Positions 38,436 to 64,000 of a stretch of 64,000 nt of DNA are shown in pieces. This DNA is from Mycoplasma sp. Pen4 (lineage in GTDB: Bacteria; Bacillota_I; Bacilli_A; Mycoplasmatales; Metamycoplasmataceae), in the NCBI RefSeq assembly GCF_014352955.1, contig NZ_CP060691.1:558001-622000 (forward strand). The letters are read 5' to 3'. The notes under the pieces are model-generated. The model was given only the letters and a program-made list of their open reading frames with translations, had not been told where the DNA came from and did not search any database. A program made the translations under genes and the position numbers. Each line of letters starts with the position of its first letter. Position 1 is the stretch's first letter.

Positions 38436-38484
38436 TTGTTGTCTCCTTTGTTCTTTTTGTTTGAACATAGCTCCTCATAAAAAC

Positions 38485-38520
38485 CTAAAATGTCCTCAAC
38501 AACATTAATTGGCATTTTAG
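38485..38520 (-). promoter_or_regulatory. Attenuator-like hairpin in the rpsJ leader
   Basis: On the minus strand CTAAAATG and CATTTTAG (extended by CC/GG) form a stem followed by GTTTTTA. This looks like a weak intrinsic terminator between promoter and first gene. Confidence 0.45.
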
Positions 38521-38554
38521 CAACCTTATGATTCATTGCTATAGTTGCTTACAT

Positions 38555-54408: not shown

Positions 54409-56793
54409 TTATTCTTTATTTTTTAAATTTTGGATTCATTTATCTCTTTGTGCTTCAGTTCCATAGATGTAATGAATACCATCTTCAATTTCATAAATAT
54501 TTGATACATTTGGGAATGCTTGTTCTTCTAAGTATGATAATTCGAATTTAACATCTTGGAATTTTTCGTTTGCATTTGAGATTTTAGGTATTGCTTTAAA
54601 TAAATTAAGGGTGTAAGGGTGAACTGGGTTAGCATAAATTGCTTCTGTTTTACCTGATTCAACAATTTTACCTAAGTGCATAATTTGTACACTATCAGCA
54701 ACATATTCGATCATCGATAAATCGTGGGCAATAAATACCATACCGATATTATTTGTTTTACATAAATCTTTAAGCAAGTTAACAACTTGAGCTTGGATTG
54801 AGATATCTAATGAAGCAATTGGTTCATCAGCAACAATAACTTTAGGTTCACTAATTAAAGCACGTGCGATAACAATTCTTTGACGTTGTCCACCAGAGAA
54901 TTCATGTGGATAACGATAAGCAAATTGTTTTAATAAACCAACATCTTCTAATGATTTATAAATTTTGGCTTGAGTGTAAAGTTCACCAATTCTTTTCATT
55001 CTAAACGGAATAGTTAAACCTGAAATGAAATTAGCTAATTTCTTTGGTGCTTTACTTATAAATAAATCAAATTTTGAAATTCCTAATAATAAGTAAATAT
55101 TATGTAAGTTTTTATTTAAATATTTAAGTTCAATTTGGAATGATTTAATTCCATTTAATCTATCATGAACATTTGTTTGGAACACTTTTCCATCAATTTT
55201 GGCTTGTTTTAATTTATCTGGTGTTTTTGCTTGTGCAATAAAAGTGTTTTTGTAATATTGATTAAATTTAGAATTATTCTCTTTAAAATGAATCATTAAT
55301 TTTGCATCAATTGCTTGTAAACGTTTTTGTTCTTCAAGTTCTTGATTGATTTTTTCATTAATGCTTTCAATGCGTTTTTGATACTCAATAATGTATTTTT
55401 CTGCTTCTATATCAAAGTTCTTTTGTGCTTTTTTGAACTCATTTTTAGCTTTAACACGTTCTTCATGGTAATCTGGTGCTAATTTAAAGAATTCATTAAA
55501 TACTTTAAATGCACCTTTGAAATATCTTTTACGTGATTTTTTAAGTTTATCTGCTAATTCGAATTTTAATTCATCTGATTTTTGGATGTATTTTGTTAAA
55601 TCAAAACTAAATTTTTCATCAACAATTGTTTTAACTTTCTTAATATCAGCTTTTGATTTTAATTCGAAGTTTAATTCTTGTTTATAGAAGTTTTGTGAAT
55701 ATGCTCTAAATTCATCACCTAATTGTTTTAAATCCTCAAAATCTAAGAAATATAATCTACGAATATTTTTACTGATTAAACGATATAAGTATTTGTTTAA
55801 ATATTTTAATTTTGTTTCATGGAAGTAGAAATCTAAATAATATGTACTTCTCGCATCATTTTTATGCATTTTGAATTCATTATAAATTTCAGACTTAAAG
55901 TTCTTAATTGAAGTTTTAGAAATCATTAATTTATCATGATAGTTTGAATAATCTTCTTTAAATTGAAGCTTATTATTTGCACTTGCTTCTTTAGCATCGA
56001 AGTACTCTTGAGTAAAGAAGAATAATCTTTTTTGATGTTTGTAGTTATTACGTGCATTTTCAAGTTCAACTTCATCTAAATCAATGTTTTTATTTCTAAA
56101 ATCTTGTTGTTTTTGTTCATATAAATTAATTAATTTTTCTGAATTTTTATATAAGTTATTAATTACAATTGTGTTGATTCTTGTTTTTTCTTCTAAATAT
56201 GAAAAGTATTTGTTAAATTCATCATCGATATTACCTTCGTTTCCAAAAGTAATATCATAAGCATTTTTGTCTCATTTTTCAACAAATGGTTTATAAAGTT
56301 TGTTTGAAATTCTTAAGTTTTCTAATTTAAGAGTTAATGATTTTTCTAAGAATGTATATTTAAAGTTGTTTTTAACTTTAGTTCAGTCTTTTTTGATGTC
56401 TCTTTTCTTTTCTTTAATGATTCCATTTACAACTAAAGGTTCTTTTAAAATACTGTAAATTGTATTTTGTCCATTAAGTGCTGCCATTGGGTCTTGGAAA
56501 ATCATTTGAATATTCTTACGCATAAACTTTCTTCTCTTACGAGAGATTTTTTTACCAGAGATTATTCTACCATCTAAGCGTACAAAACCGTTGAAGTCTT
56601 CATATAGACGTAATAATGAACGACCAACAGTTGTTTTTCCTGAACCAGATTCACCTATAAGCCCAACAATTTCACCTTCTTTAACTGTAAAACTAACATC
56701 ATCTACAGCTTTATTAACAGAATTTCTTCCTGTGAAATATTTTTTAAGGTTGATTATTTCTAAAATAGTTTTCTTTTCATTATTTTTTTGCAT
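54409..56793 (-). CDS. oppF: Oligopeptide ABC transporter ATPase OppF with large insertion
   Basis: ATP-binding subunit of the peptide importer, 794 residues against about 330 usually. Walker A is GESGSGKTT near residue 50 and the Q-loop is MIFQDPMAALNG near 100. The signature FSGGQRQR appears only near residue 633, followed by VIVADEPIASLD and the switch IAHDLS. Between Q-loop and signature lie about 450 extra residues, highly charged and coiled-coil-like (Lys, Glu, Asn, Tyr). Large inserts in OppF also occur in other mycoplasmas. The start overlaps oppD by 14 bases. Confidence 0.92.
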
Positions 56794-58015
56794 AGAATAC
56801 CTTCTTGAAACTTTCTAATCTGGTTAATAATTCATTTGATAATTGTACTTTTGGTGCTTCAGGGTGAAGAAGTCATGTTGCAGCATAATGAGTAGGCGAA
56901 ACTTCGAAGAGAGGCGGTTCTTTGATGAAGTCAATTTCTAATGCATACTCATTTCTAGGTGCAAATGCATCTCCAAGTGGTAAGTTGTTCATATCAGGTG
57001 GTGTTCCACTGATTGAATATAAACGATCTTCTTTATTTTCTGGGATAGCCGAAATTAAAGCTCATGTGTAAGGGTGTTTTGGATCTGTAAATATTTCTGA
57101 TTTAAGACCTCTTTCAACTATTTTTCCTGCGTACATAACATAAATATAGTCACAGAATTTAGCAACAACTGAAATGTTATGGCTAATTAAAATAATTGTA
57201 ATGTTTAATTCTTTTCTAATTTGTTCGAATAATGCTAGCACTGAGGCTTGAACGGTTGGATCAAGTGCAGTAGTTGGTTCGTCAGCAATAATTAAACTTG
57301 GACGAAGAGCAACAACCATCGCAATAATAACGCGCTGTTTCATACCCCCTGATAATGTATGAGGATACATATCGAATACTTCTTCAGCACGTCTAATTCC
57401 AAAACGTTCAAGTAAACCAACAAGGTGTTTACGTTTTTCAACGTATGTTTTAGTTTTTCAGTCTTGATTTTTATTTAAAGCATCTAAAAGTTGTTTTCCA
57501 ATTTTTCTAGTTGGATTAAGTGATGTCAATGGATCTTGTGGCACATAACCAATTACGTGTCCACGGATTTTTTGTCAGAATTTATCTTTATTTGATTGTA
57601 AAAGATCAATACCATTGATTTCCATTTGATCTGCAGTCATAAAAGCATTTTCATTAATATTTAACAATGACTTAGATGTAACAGATTTTCCTGAACCAGA
57701 TTCACCAACAAGTCCGATGATTTGTCCTTTATCAATTGATAAATCAATTCCACGAACAATTGTGATGAATTTATTTCTTGAGATCTTAAATGATACTTTT
57801 AAATTTTTAACTCTTAATAAACTTTGATCTTGAGGTTTAGCATATTGAAGAATTGCATTGTGGTTACCTTGACAATTTCCACCACAACGTGCACCTCCAA
57901 TAGGTTGACAAACATTATCTTCACGCGTTTCCATTGATAAAAATTCTTTAACTTCTTGATTTTCAGGTAATGCTACTACTTCTTCATGGATTAATTCTTT
58001 ATTTTCTAATTCCAT
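56780..58015 (-). CDS. oppD: Oligopeptide ABC transporter ATPase OppD
   Basis: 411 residues. Walker A GESGSGKSV near residue 107, Q-loop YVPQDPLTSLNP, signature LSGGMKQR, Walker B LIIADEPTTALD and switch LISHNI are all present, so it should be active. An N-terminal extension of about 65 residues contains a cysteine-rich stretch (CQPIGGARCGGNCQGNH). The C-terminal peptide-transporter motif follows (GTPPDMNNLPLGDAFAPR). Several TGA codons are Trp. Located between oppC and oppF. Confidence 0.93.
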
Positions 58016-58029
58016 AAAAATCTCCTTTA

Positions 58030-59373
58030 TTATTTAGATTTGATTACTTTTGGATCTAGAGCATCATGAACTCCAAGTGCAACGAAGTGTAATGATACTG
58101 AGATAAGAAGTAAGATTGTAGCAGGTAATGCAAGAATTCATACGTTTGTACTTGCTTGTGAGGCAGCCGAAGATAAGATAGCCCCAAGGTTAGCTTGATC
58201 TGATTTGAAGAACCCAAGGAATGCAAGTGATGACACTGACATAATAATTGATGGGATTGAAGCAACATATGATGTAGCAATTTTTCCAACGATTCCTGGA
58301 AGTGCATGTTTATAGATAAGTCTTGCTTTTGATGCTCCAACCGATTTTGAAGCAGTGATGAATTCTGAATCTTTAACTGTGATGATGAACATTCTTGTTC
58401 TACCAACAGAACCAACTCATCCAACGAACACTAAGGCAAATCCTAATGTTAAATCTGTTGTACCGAATGTAGTCGCAAAGATTAAAAGTCAAATAAGTGT
58501 AGGAGGTGCAACAAAGATATCAATTAAACGCATCATAACTGTATCAATTCATGAACCAACGTGGAAACCAAGGTATGCACCAACTGTTACACCGATGATT
58601 GTTTGAATTGTAGCAACAATGATTGCAAGTCTAATAGCTTGTCATGTTCCAACTCATGAAGTTGTTCAGATGTCAAGACCTTTGTCATTTGTTCCTAATA
58701 TTGTGGCTAAGTTTAATTGTGGGTTGTTTTGGATAATGAATCCAGCTAATTTAATTGCGTCTGCTTTTGATGTTGTAGCAGGATTAAATCCAGCGTTATC
58801 AAGTGCAGCAGAAATGTTAAGCATTTTTAAAAAGTTGTAAATATCAATGTAAAGTGTTTTGTTTTCATCGATTCTAAATGTTTTGTCTTTAATTAAACCA
58901 ATTCCTGCATGGTTGAATAAGTCCATGTCATTAACTTTGAATGCACCACCATAGAAATTAGAGTTATTAAAGATTGATATCTCTTGGCTGTAAGGGCTTG
59001 CGATAACGAAAGGTTCAAATGTTGGCGGCAAGCTTATTACTTTTGCTGTTGAAGCAACGCCTGATTTAATTAAGTTACCATCTAAATCATAGACATTGAT
59101 TTTGATATCATCATAAATTGGGTTTGTTGAACTATAAAATGATGTAGATGTAATGATGATAGAAGCAAGTAAAACTCCTAAAAATACTATTAAACCAACA
59201 ACAGCTGATCAACTTGAGAAGAATCTTTTGAAGATTTCAATTACTATTTTTTTAGGTTTACCGGCAATGTTATTTAAATTCGCATCATCTTTAGCAGCGA
59301 AAGAACTAATAGTTGAACGTAATGAACCATTAAGATTTAAATTATATTTTTTCTCGAATTCTTTGGCGTTCAT
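58030..59373 (-). CDS. oppC: Oligopeptide ABC transporter permease OppC
   Basis: 447 residues. One membrane helix near residues 56-77 precedes a large extracytoplasmic loop of about 150 residues. Five more helices follow, with the cytoplasmic coupling motif EFITASKSVGASKARLIYKHALPG. The N-terminus (about 50 residues) and the loop are longer than in most OppC proteins. Two bases separate its start from the oppB stop. Confidence 0.92.
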
Positions 59374-59375
59374 AC

Positions 59376-60563
59376 TTATTCTCCTTCCGCTACTTGTATT
59401 GTTGTTTCTTCTTTGGTTAATTCATTAAATTGTCTTTCTCTTGCTAAATATGCTTTAAAGAAGCGTGAGTAGCTGTATTGACTTGATGAAGAGTACTTAA
59501 TTCTAGGGTCAAGCAATGCAAATGAAATATCAACAATTATTGTAGTTACTAAACTTAATAATGTAAAGAATGAAGTTGAGAACATAATAATGTTAATTTC
59601 ACCATTAGGGAATGCTTGTGCAATTACTTGTGATGTCCCTGGTACTTTTCAATAAGTTTCAATAACAATTCCCCCACTAAGAAGTCCAATATATGATGGA
59701 ATAAGCATTGCTGCAAGTGGGATTGAAATATTTCTTAAGACATATTTAAAGAAGATTTGTTTTCTTGAAAGTCCTTTTGATTTAGCTATTAAAATGTAAT
59801 TTGATGTAAGTACACTAATAACTTGGTTTCTAGTATATGTAATGTAACCTGATAATGAACCTAAAACAATGATTGAGATTGGTGGAATTCATGAAAGAAT
59901 AATTTTTCCTCAACCTTGAGTTTTTACAACTGCTTCATCATTGAAGTTTAGGAATACGGGTGGTACATTGATAGAAAATAGAATTGATATTAAAATCGGC
60001 GCGATAACGAAACTTGGTAATGCCACAAAGATTAAGGCAAATAAGTTAATTCCGGCATCAGAAGCTGATCCACGTTTATATCCAGCAACAATTCCTAATG
60101 CGATTCCAATAATTGCTGAAATCACGAATGCTGGAAGTGTAATAATAATTGAGTATTTTAAGAATTTGAAGAAGAAACCACTAATTGTTGTAGCTCCTGC
60201 TGTTGTTAAAATTCCTTCATTATAAGGTACTCCAAATGGATTTTGTTTATTAGTAAATAAGTTTTGAACTCAATAACCAAAACGTACAATTGGACTGACT
60301 TTTATGTTTGCTCATGTACCGTTTGGATAATCACTAAGATTTAAATCACTTGGTACAAGGTGAAACTTGACGGATTGTTCAAAGGCTTCTTTAAATAATT
60401 TTTGTGAAGCCTCTGAAGAATCACCACTATTAAGCCCCTTACTTAAAGCAGCTTTAAGAAAAGGGTTTTCAGTAAATTGTGCCACTAATAAATAAACCAC
60501 AAGGATGATGATGACTAATGTTATCAATGCAAAACCTAAACGTTTTAAAATATATCTTAACAT
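59376..60563 (-). CDS. oppB: Oligopeptide ABC transporter permease OppB
   Basis: 395 residues. Begins MLRYILKRLGFALITLVII, the usual first helix, followed by an extended extracytoplasmic loop rich in polar residues. The remaining helices include the coupling region with GLSRKQIFFKYVLRNI-like sequence and IIGIALGIVAGYKRGS. The end EETTIQVAEGE abuts oppC. It starts 43 bases after oppA with an AGGAGA Shine-Dalgarno. Confidence 0.92.
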
Positions 60564-60605: not shown

Positions 60606-63600
60606 CTATTTTGCTTGTGCTGTTTTAATTGTTGTTAAATCATCGAAGTCTGAGTAATTTGCAGGAATTACATAGTTAGGGTTCGATAATGTTTCTGTGA
60701 ATGTTTTAACTGAAACAGCCATTGCAACATCTGGATATGCTCCATAGATATTTGAAATTTCTTGTGCTAATTCAACTAATTGTAATTTTGTTACGCTTGA
60801 ATTACTTGTTGTGTATGTTAATCAGAATGTTGACATTAATAATTCTAATGAAATGTATTGACTTGTTTCTTCTGCTGGGATATCAACTAATTCATTGTTT
60901 TCATTAAATCTTTTAACACCAAGGATGTTTCCTAATGTTGAGAGTTGTTTTGTTGTTAAACCAGAAATTTGTTGTGGTGTTAATGATAATTTTTGTTTTG
61001 ATCCATCAGCATTTAATGTATCAACTAATTTTTTGAATGCTTTAGACGCTGCCACAAGTCTTGGATATAATGCTTCCATTTTTTGTGCATAAGCATCATC
61101 TGAAATTAATTTGAATAATGCTGTGTTTAAAACTGCATTACTGTGTGAGTAACCGTCGATTCCTGATCCGATTCCATCGTAATCGTATCCTCATCCAACA
61201 AATCCAACTGGAGAAGCTCCGTTTAATCAGAATGATTGTCATTCATCTCTATCTTTTGGACGTCTAATTGAAAATTCAAATCTTGAATCTAATGAATTCA
61301 ATACTGCTTGAATTAATTCATATGTGTTTGTCATTGTACCAGGTAAATTATTGAACCGATATAATACATTAATTCTAATTTTATCATTTGCATTTGTTTC
61401 TGGTTGTAATTCAGGGTTTGCAGCATAGAATCTATCAAGTAATGCTTTGAATTTTGTTTTAACTTGTTCAAATACTGGTGATTGTAATAATGTATCTGAA
61501 TTTTTAATTGCAACAGATTGACCAGGTTGGATTAATGTTCCTTGAACACCGTCAAATTGAACTCTTGTTCCGTTTGCAGAATCAACTGCAAAGAATGAGT
61601 TAATTAATTTACTGTTTTCTCTAAGTGTGTTTGCAGCTGTTTTATCTTCATCATTTCCGGCAACAATAAGACTATCTGGTGAGAATGCTGTTACTCATGC
61701 ATTTTTTTGTTGAGATGGACCATATTGGTTTTGTGCATATGCAGCTCAGTCAATTGCTGTTGAAATTAATGAGTTAAATTCAGCGCCCATTCCTAATGTA
61801 ATGTTTTCAATGTTATTTGCAAGTGTTCCATTTGATAATTGATCTCTAGTTCCACCATACATTAATTTGATGTATGCATCACTTACAGAACTATTATCTG
61901 CACCACTATCAGGAATTAAGTTTCATGTTTGGTATCTTGTAAATTTATTTTTTGAAAGAACTTTTGAATATGATAATCCGTAAGGATTATTTGTTGCGCT
62001 AGATTTATCAGAAACTTTTGTACGTTCAGCTTCAGATAATGTTGATCATGCAAAACGATATTCTGTACCTGAAAGGTAATTTTTTCATGATTGGTCATCG
62101 AATGTTTTTTCTTCGATTGTTGTAGTTGTATATTTATTTCTAAATTCTTTAATTGTACGTGGATCGTTAACAAAGTTTTGGTCTGCGTAGTGTGTATTTA
62201 ATTTTGTTGCAACGATTTGTGTATCTGGGTTATATGCTACAGCATAGTATTTTCCAGAAAATAATGTTTGATCTAAGCTAGCACCATATCAGTAAATTCC
62301 AGCTTCTTTTGCTAAACCATTTACATTTTTTAATCCATTGAACAAGTCTTCTTCTTGTTTAAATGTTGTTGTTGTAGGTTTAAAGATCTCTTTAACTTTT
62401 TCTGCAGTTGATGATGTATCGTTTGATACTTCTTCATTTTTAGCATTAATATATGCTGATGGAGCAGGAACAAAGTCATATGATGTTGCGACTAAGTCAT
62501 CAATTAATTTTGTAAATTGAGCAGATAAACCTGGTTCAACTTTACCAACTGAGAAGTATGTATTGCCTTGATCATCAGTTGAAAGTGCTTTTGATTCATC
62601 AAGCATGTTGTCAAAATTTATATTAAATAAGTTGTATAAGTATTTGTTGTTGTATCTAGAATCATCATCAAATCTTCCTTTTGAAAGGTTAAGAAGTGCC
62701 GCAGTAACTAAATCGTCAACTTGTTTTGATCCCCCATTTTTTCTTCTGAAATCAACATCAATGAATTGAGTTCTTAAAAGTCCAACAAGGAAGTCTTTAG
62801 CAGTAATTTCATATGGTGTTTTTTGTCCATTTTGGTCAACTCAGAAGTTACCTTTTTTAACTCTAAATTTTACTGATTGTGCTTGTTTTAACATTGCATT
62901 GAAGTTTTCGGAGTTAATTGATTTAGGATCATTTGATGATCTTTCAATTGATGTGAAAGCATAGTATTTTCCATCAATTGTTGGAGCAGGCACTAATGAA
63001 GCATCATCAGAATCAAATACGTGTTCTTGTCCATCGCTTGTAATAATGATAATTGCATCAGCTAATTCGAATTTTCTACGGCTTACTGATGGTCTTAAGA
63101 TATGTTCTACTGTTGTTTCTGATAATGTTGTTTCATCAAGAGTTTTTTCTGTTTCAATAATTGGTGTACCTGTGTGTTGAATCGAAATAAATGATGATAC
63201 TGTTGTATCGTAAAGTGGTTGTTGTCTTCCACCTGAACTAGATGAATTATCATACAATCATGGTAAATTTGTGAATATTGAGTTATATTCATGTTGTAAG
63301 TAACCATCTTTTGCATAGCTATCTGAAACAATTGAATTGTCAAAATAAACTACTGGGTTAATTACGTTATATGCATCTCTAGGTTGTAAGTAACCTTCTT
63401 TTGTTGCATTTGTGTCGTTAAATCCATAAGATGGTTCAACGCTATTTAAGTCTCTTTGCACGATTGATTGAAGCTTTTCCCATGCTAAGTGACCTTCTCC
63501 TGAGTTTGTAACAGGTGTTTCTCCAGTCCCTGGGTTAGATGTGTCGTTATTTGTTGTAGTACCACATGCCACTAAAGCTAAAGCAGGAGTTGTAGAAACT

Positions 63601-63644
63601 GCGGTAATTGATAAATTAAGAAATATTTTTAATTTTTTTGTCAT
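60606..63644 (-). CDS. oppA: Oligopeptide-binding lipoprotein OppA
   Basis: Substrate-binding component, 1012 residues, typical of the large mycoplasma OppA. The signal peptide (MTKKLKIFLNLSITAVS) ends in a lipobox LVAC with Cys27 as the lipidation site. A Thr/Asn/Gly-rich linker follows. TGA-coded Trp are frequent. The Shine-Dalgarno AAAGGAG fixes the start. It is the first gene of oppABCDF, directly downstream of a lysine-riboswitch-like leader and terminator. LspA at 1-526 would process it. OppA of M. hominis is also known as an adhesin/ecto-ATPase; I see no clear P-loop here. Confidence 0.92.
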
Positions 63645-63680
63645 TTTATTCTCCTTTGTATTAGTTTGAAAATGGTATGT

Positions 63681-63719
63681 AAAAAACAAAGCTTTGTAGA
63701 CTACAAATCTACAAAACTT
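63681..63719 (-). terminator. Leader terminator of the opp operon (expression platform)
   Basis: On the minus strand AAGTTTTGTAGA pairs over 12 bp with TCTACAAAGCTT and is followed by TG and six T residues. It lies only about 37 bases before the oppA start, so it would block the whole operon when formed. Confidence 0.85.
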
Positions 63720-63757
63720 TTTTGACTATCAATATATAATTATTAATTCAAAAAGTT
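63716..63757 (-). promoter_or_regulatory. Antiterminator of the opp leader
   Basis: AACTTTTTGA (63748-63757) can pair with TCAAAAAAGTT (63716-63725), using bases that also form the 5' arm of the terminator. The two structures exclude each other. Confidence 0.6.
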
Positions 63758-63761
63758 ATGT

Positions 63762-63922
63762 AAATCTATAGCACCAATGGTTCACCAAAGAGTAGAAATC
63801 TTTTATGCTTTTCTACCAATACTTGTGTTGCCACACATAATATTTCGGCTTTTATATCCTTTCGGTAATTTCATTGCTTGCCAGCTCCATTACTTACTCT
63901 TATTAAAAGCTCCTCTATAGTT
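63762..63922 (-). ncRNA. Lysine riboswitch aptamer (L-box) upstream of oppA
   Basis: The minus-strand leader matches the B. subtilis lysC leader, as I recall it, in order and spacing. P1 is formed by CTATAG on both sides (63915-63920 with 63766-63771). It is followed by AGAGG, the GC of P2, AAGAGTA, a GTAAT/ATTAC stem, CCGAAAGG, AAAAGCCGAA, then P3 with a GTGT-GGCA-ACAC cap. P4 is GTAGAAA/TTTCTAC and P5 is TGG-TGAA-CCA. All five helices can form. Lysine binding would be expected to favour the downstream terminator and lower opp expression. The identification is by eye and not from a covariance model. Confidence 0.82.
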
Positions 63923-63929
63923 TCATAAG

Positions 63930-63965
63930 CAATAACAGATTTCTCTTATTCTAAATCTGTTATTG
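63930..63965 (-). repeat. 13-bp perfect inverted repeat at the start of the opp leader
   Basis: AATAACAGATTT and AAATCTGTTATT flank a 10-base loop; there is no T-run, so it is not a terminator. It lies at the predicted transcript start and may be an operator or a 5'-protecting hairpin. Confidence 0.55.
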
Positions 63966-63973: not shown

Positions 63974-64000
63974 CATTAACAGATTACAACTAAATAATAA

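Follow-up and report, generated by a model that had tools for sequence, protein, structure and literature searches.

A lysine-class aptamer and a putative leader-peptide attenuator in tandem upstream of the mycoplasma opp operon

Mycoplasmas are thought to have little gene regulation. The DNA analysed here, referred to as the window, is a stretch of 64,000 nucleotides from Mycoplasma sp. Pen4 (contig NZ_CP060691.1), which carries the oligopeptide transporter operon oppABCDF close to one of its ends. All features of the operon and of its leader lie on the minus strand. Read in the direction of transcription, the region upstream of oppA comprises a TATAAT box, a short open reading frame (ORF), three short boxes with alternative pairing, an aptamer of the lysine riboswitch class (RF00168) at 63761-63925, an intrinsic terminator and a Shine-Dalgarno sequence. 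The RF00168 element upstream of oppA is a genuine lysine-class aptamer, as established by the covariance-model match, by covariation and by the retained core residues. The leader as a whole very probably operates as a two-stage amino-acid sensor in which a leader-peptide attenuator precedes a lysine riboswitch. The evidence for the riboswitch stage is strong; a ribosome-mediated first stage is suggested by the anatomy of the leader.

The lysine-class aptamer

The RF00168 match (cmscan) scores 67.9 bits with a gathering score of 30 and covers model positions 1-182 of 182, with E values of 8.7e-18 for a search of 401 bases and 1.4e-15 when the entire window is scanned. It is the single RF00168 match in the genome of 901,484 bases. 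A previous reading of the window, made from the sequence only, had placed a lysine aptamer at 63762-63922 on the basis of signature elements in the right order; the full-length match on the minus strand lies within 3 nucleotides of that position, and every element is located in the order proposed. These are AGAGG (63916-63912), AGTA (63898-63895), CCGAAAGG (63865-63858) and GCCGAA (63849-63844), followed by P3, P4 and P5 and finally by the P1 3′ strand CTATAG (63771-63766). In the cmscan alignment the P1 helix is a perfect duplex of 6 base pairs (CTATAG/CTATAG) formed by the 5′ strand at 63915-63920 and the 3′ strand at 63766-63771, the latter being common to the antiterminator through its pairing there.

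The lysine-aptamer core residues, following the list given in T. maritima numbering (PMC3764141), are retained almost entirely in the window aptamer. These include G9, A10, G11, G12, G14, C15, A23, U28, G69, G77 and C78, as well as C79, G80, A81, G114, U140, A126, A127, G163 and C166. The sole deviation affects the floor of the binding pocket, where the G141/A162 pair is replaced by C/G. Among 70 outgroup lysine aptamers sampled from elsewhere in the class, G at the position of A162 is the commonest state, and 38 of the 70 read GGCGC. The floor substitution is therefore no sign of a new ligand, and a changed pocket was rejected as an explanation since the C/G replacement is common in ordinary lysine aptamers. 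L-lysine is the predicted ligand of the opp leader aptamer.

Laying the Rfam structure on 43 aptamers of opp and pepF (oligoendopeptidase F) leaders reveals changes on both sides in 34 of the 46 pairs, so that the covarying homologues before opp to which the sequence-only reading had looked for support do exist. Covariation reaches 0.451 in these 43 relatives compared with 0.177 in shuffled alignments (0 of 500 shuffles as high), and sliding the partner strand brings it to 0.154 at most. Helices P1-P5 are thus backed by covariation. A chance match to RF00168 is ruled out by score, covariation and conservation.

The expression platform

The consensus scan identifies an intrinsic terminator 3′ of the aptamer, AAAGTTTTGTAGATTTGTAGTCTACAAAGCTTT-GTTTTTT (63720-63681), which consists of a stem-loop of 15 base pairs (63688-63720, -14.5 kcal/mol) followed by the U-tract GTTTTTT (63681-63687). 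The scan finds 1 terminator in the window leader compared with 0.0 expected in shuffles, and a terminator-like hairpin lies 3′ of the aptamer in almost all leaders. The predicted antiterminator is a duplex of 13 pairs (-12.5 kcal/mol). Its 5′ strand, CTATAGATTTACA (63759-63771), consists of the P1 3′ strand plus flanking nucleotides and pairs with positions 63715-63701; its 3′ strand, TTTGTAGATTTGTAG (63701-63715), corresponds to the 5′ arm and loop of the terminator. The expression platform is coupled to P1 through this common 3′ strand. The antiterminator pairing of each leader averages -8.5 kcal/mol compared with -5.0 kcal/mol when partners are swapped between these related leaders, and is the better one in 48 of 52. 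Folded without ligand to the point just before the terminator is complete, the window leader has the antiterminator as its minimum, at -52.9 kcal/mol compared with -46.6 kcal/mol when P1 is forced. Since the P1 3′ strand is a pairing partner of the terminator 5′ arm and the antiterminator covaries, control of opp by transcription attenuation is strongly supported, with lysine predicted to turn the operon OFF.

The leader open reading frame and the three-box element

The sequence-only reading overlooked an element located directly 5′ of the aptamer, which makes the aptamer the second of two control elements. A leader ORF encoding MFKQRYMITTININTWRTSIIMNVII (translation table 4) spans 64070-63990 in window numbering continued beyond the window; its start is outside, and its 3′ end with the TAG stop occupies 63990-64000, in an architecture common to 53 leaders. 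The ORF has 26 codons, and its ATG lies 6 nucleotides after the TATAAT box (64082-64077, numbering likewise continued). Across relatives the leader ORFs have 18-35 codons with the ATG typically 6 or 9 nucleotides past TATAAT, and the differences in leader length between close pairs are whole codons (multiples of 3). When 69 opp, pepF and PDxFFG leaders were screened for TATAAT, a gap of 6-10, ATG and 17-28 codons, criteria fixed after inspection of the sequences, 53 leaders passed compared with 82 of 1060 dinucleotide shuffles. The composition of the leader peptides departs from that of proteins by an enrichment of 7-fold in Met (8.1% vs 1.2%), 3-fold in Ile (21.2% vs 7.6%), 2-fold in Asn (15.1% vs 6.9%) and 2-fold in Arg (6.2% vs 2.7%), with a depletion of Leu (3.4% vs 9.4%), Glu (0.8% vs 6.1%), Asp, Gly and Pro. 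The leader ORF is probably translated, with a leaderless start at its ATG.

The three boxes lie between the leader stop codon and the RF00168 element. Box 1, TAATCTGTTA (63977-63986), starts 3 nucleotides past the stop codon; box 2, AATAACAGATTT (63953-63964), is complementary to both box 1 and box 3; and box 3, AAATCTGTTATT (63931-63942), forms with box 2 a hairpin that lacks a U-tract here. The box sets differ by clade, reading AATCTGTT/AACAGATT/AATCTGTT, TACCTG/GCAGGT/ACCTGC or GTGTCTG/CAGACAC/GTGTCTG, and complementarity is kept in each. Pairing of box 1 with its own box 2 amounts to -11.6 kcal/mol compared with -7.0 kcal/mol after swapping, and the own partner is superior in 51 of 52. In 7 genomes the exact AATCTGTT form gives a single match each, located at the opp leader, and the reversed control pattern has 0 matches. 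Pairing of box 1 mostly starts 1-10 nucleotides past the stop codon of the short ORF. Segment 1 is close enough to the stop codon to be reached by a ribosome standing there, and the 1:2 and 2:3 hairpins are alternatives to one another. No Rfam family covers the three-box element.

The leader ORF and boxes also stand before opp operons that have no aptamer, in genomes G001, G002, G010, G011, G024, G034, G035, G042 and G048. A U-tract (T runs of at least 4) follows the box2:box3 hairpin in about 10 aptamer-bearing leaders of the GCAGGT type and in about 6 aptamer-less leaders. The possibility that box 3 is coupled to P1 or the terminator was considered and rejected for want of covariation.

The opp operon and its genomic setting

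The reading frames of oppABCDF were translated with table 4, in which TGA is read as Trp; this codon use and the 'Mplas' label of the OppA family agree with a mycoplasma. The Shine-Dalgarno sequence AAGGAG (63651-63656) precedes oppA (60606-63644), which encodes a substrate-binding lipoprotein of the OppA family (NCBIfam NF045850, E 3e-197). It is followed by the permease genes oppB (59376-60563; PF00528, E 1.4e-30) and oppC (58030-59373; PF00528, OppC_N) and by the ATPase genes oppD (56780-58015; PF00005, PF08352, NF043079) and oppF (54409-56793; PF00005 in two pieces, PF08352). The OppF ATPase domain is split by an insertion of ~460 residues, with PF00005 matched at 31-144 and again from about 607. 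These families confirm the operon named by the sequence-only reading, and the aptamer precedes oppABCDF rather than a gene of lysine biosynthesis or lysine transport, a departure from the habit of the family and not from a structural criterion. The genes 5′ of the aptamer are divergent, therefore the opp promoter must sit in the intergenic region. Elsewhere in the window, positions 38448-38544 match the S10-Clostridia ribosomal-protein leader (RF03136, 43.6 bits).

Neither a DHDPS homologue nor a protein of the Orn/DAP/Arg decarboxylase fold was found in the genome, so that lysine synthesis is very probably absent from it; such an auxotrophy fits the proposal of the sequence-only reading that the cell is unable to make amino acids. 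Two permeases of the APC type are present, both without an aptamer, and pepF was not found in this genome.

Distribution and targets of the aptamer

The aptamer occurs in 42 of 61 genomes of the genus, 48 of 135 of the family and 48 of 320 of the order; within the order it is limited to one family. The first genes downstream were read for all 62 aptamers of the family. In 49 of the 62 these belong to peptide use, namely opp (23), pepF then opp (21) or pepF alone (5), and the remainder precede an APC permease (5), a surface lipoprotein (3), a lipoprotein with a PDxFFG protein (3) or a PDxFFG protein (2). The link to opp or pepF is seen in 4 of the 5 aptamer-bearing genera. Genomes G061, G113 and G114 each have two aptamers, one preceding opp or pepF-opp and the other a permease gene, and G003 has three (PDxFFG, permease and pepF-opp). 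In the OppA tree the gene of the window is nested among pepF-opp operons with a branch support of 97, and thus pepF was probably lost in its lineage. A permissive search of 15 aptamer-less opp leaders yielded no hidden or decayed aptamer.

In the 70 outgroup aptamers the targets are SBP_bac_3 proteins (36), LysA-type decarboxylases (9), carriers of the Na/H-antiporter family (8) and others, including NhaC-type and DcuC carriers. No oligopeptide-binding or M3-peptidase family appears downstream in this tally, and the idea that opp/pepF is a general target of lysine riboswitches was rejected (0 of 70).

Further arrangements were observed among the relatives. In leaders L045, L048 and L050 (genomes G052, G016 and G019) the aptamer stands on pepF in genomes without a close oppB homologue. 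The aptamers of L055, L057, L060, L080 and L081 lie before surface proteins of the PDxFFG family, several of them with a leader ORF and boxes of their own, and one PDxFFG-family protein preceded by an aptamer bears a HEYGHH motif resembling that of zinc proteases. In G004-G006 (L035, L044, L049, L062, L075) aptamers are paired ~3 kb apart, one on repetitive surface lipoproteins and the next on oppA. The aptamer-less opp leaders L098 (G036), L105 (G032) and L110 (G051) have a different long hairpin near the oppA start, which contains a conserved TTTTTTACTAATAATG.

Proposed mechanism

Translation of the short leaderless ORF, in which codons for Met, Ile, Asn and Arg abound, would proceed during transcription. 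A ribosome at the leader stop codon would cover box 1 and leave box 2 to pair with box 3, while a ribosome that stalls when charged tRNA (Met, Ile, Asn, Arg) is scarce would allow the box1:box2 hairpin to form. In relatives with a U-tract after box 3, the box2:box3 hairpin would be a terminator, such that amino-acid shortage would turn opp ON; in the group of the window the U-tract has been lost and this terminator readout would not carry over. The lysine riboswitch would then act as a second gate in series. With lysine bound, P1 would close and its 3′ strand would be unavailable for the antiterminator, leaving the terminator (63720-63681) to form and transcription to end before oppA; without lysine, the P1 3′ strand would pair with the terminator 5′ arm and opp would be transcribed. 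The net effect would be an increase in peptide import under amino-acid shortage, with lysine sensed directly by the RNA, and in relatives the same shortage may likewise raise PepF-dependent peptide hydrolysis, along with an amino-acid permease and surface proteins. The sequence-only reading had free lysine repressing peptide import. The OFF-attenuator anatomy agrees with this, but import may have other regulators besides lysine, which looks like one of two amino-acid inputs. With moderate confidence, we propose that a serial two-input RNA device of this kind controls peptide scavenging in mycoplasmas, its parts governing peptidase, permease and surface-protein genes as an amino-acid-hunger regulon.

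Several observations weigh against the two-stage sensor. The box2:box3 hairpin is without a U-tract in the group of the window and in 2-3 other leaders, leaving no evident output for the first stage there, and no sequence further downstream was found to covary with box 3. Purifying selection on the leader peptides is weak, with 14 synonymous changes compared with 11.4 expected in close pairs, and the ORF screen used criteria chosen in hindsight. The leaders are related, so that the swap counts of 48 and 51 out of 52 represent non-independent trials, and the antiterminator pairing of the opp leaders in G047, G049 and G055 is no better than in shuffles.

Among other explanations, the best placed takes opp to be a de facto lysine transporter, importing lysine-rich peptides or free lysine, and the riboswitch to be ordinary feedback on lysine uptake. 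Lysine riboswitches usually stand on lysine transporters, and the pepF case was read in this manner (PMC5584792); on the other hand, OppABCDF and PepF serve general peptide import and hydrolysis, and in four genomes a separate APC permease is under an aptamer of its own. We regard this reading as possible, if doubtful, and as overlapping with general peptide import to an extent that sequence separates incompletely.

It is unlikely that the lysine riboswitch regulates opp on its own, with the ORF and boxes being fortuitous or non-regulatory, such as a hairpin that stabilises the 5′ end or an operator in the DNA to which a transcription factor binds. The missing U-tract after box 3 and the weak selection on the peptide would suit such a reading, and AATCTGTT/AACAGATT/AATCTGTT is also legible as an operator. 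However, the boxes vary by clade (AATCTGTT, TACCTG, TGTGTCTG, GCTCC) and yet stay matched, which is unlike one conserved operator; the exact pattern has one occurrence in each genome, which is at opp; and a composition-skewed reading frame stops just 5′ of box 1.

A lysine-class aptamer with a shifted ligand, such as hydroxylysine, a dipeptide that contains lysine or a different basic amino acid, would account for the peptide transporter as target and for the C/G pair in place of the G141/A162 purine pair. It is most improbable given that every other listed core residue is kept, that floor G is found in most lysine aptamers of the class on ordinary lysine genes (those reading GGCGC) and that sister aptamers stand on amino-acid permeases in G003, G061, G113 and G114. 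An ON switch or translational control found no supporting point and can be set aside, given the U-tract terminator and the antiterminator overlapping P1 in 48 of 52 leaders.

Comparison with known systems

The two-stage reading would provide a predicted ligand and a direction of control for the principal peptide importer in a large group of mycoplasmas, and would widen the lysine regulon beyond lysine genes so that it takes in peptide scavenging in general. The three-box leaders point in addition to leader-peptide attenuation in mollicutes, of which we know of no earlier report. A search of the open literature, with most subscription papers outside it, found no description of a link between opp and a riboswitch or of a leader-peptide attenuator in mycoplasmas. 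Both components are of known kinds; what appears to be new is the target, together with the arrangement in tandem and the presence in mollicutes.

The sequence-only reading considered its regulatory logic undescribed. This appears to hold for opp, but the link to peptide use was partly foreshadowed by a 2017 survey that located lysine riboswitches before the gene for oligoendopeptidase F in a small number of Mycoplasma species and took the operon for a putative lysine transporter (PMC5584792). The pepF riboswitch of that survey belongs to the same aptamer lineage as the opp leader, and its operon is very likely the pepF-opp arrangement of the 21 leaders described here. The survey makes no mention of opp, whereas here opp is the main target (44 leaders) and the expression platform is resolved.

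The second stage resembles the OFF-type L box of Bacillus lysC (RF00168) in its aptamer, its core residues and the layout of P1, antiterminator and terminator. In contrast to lysC, the opp leader controls oppABCDF, and in relatives pepF and surface proteins of the PDxFFG type, rather than lysine synthesis or transport, and its aptamer stands in tandem behind a putative leader-peptide attenuator. The proposed first stage shares with the ribosome-mediated attenuators of amino-acid operons (PMC1183508) and of B. subtilis bmrCD (PMC4191407) a short leader ORF of skewed codon content, a stop codon adjoining segment 1 and mutually exclusive 1:2 and 2:3 hairpins, with 2:3 being a terminator in several clades. 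It differs from them in serving a mollicute peptide importer, in its leaderless ORF, in the lack of a single dominant codon, in the riboswitch that follows it and in the loss of the U-tract in the clade of the window. Finally, the opp leader is similar to tandem riboswitches in having two RNA sensors per leader; unlike these, it would combine a sensor that binds a metabolite with one that depends on translation.
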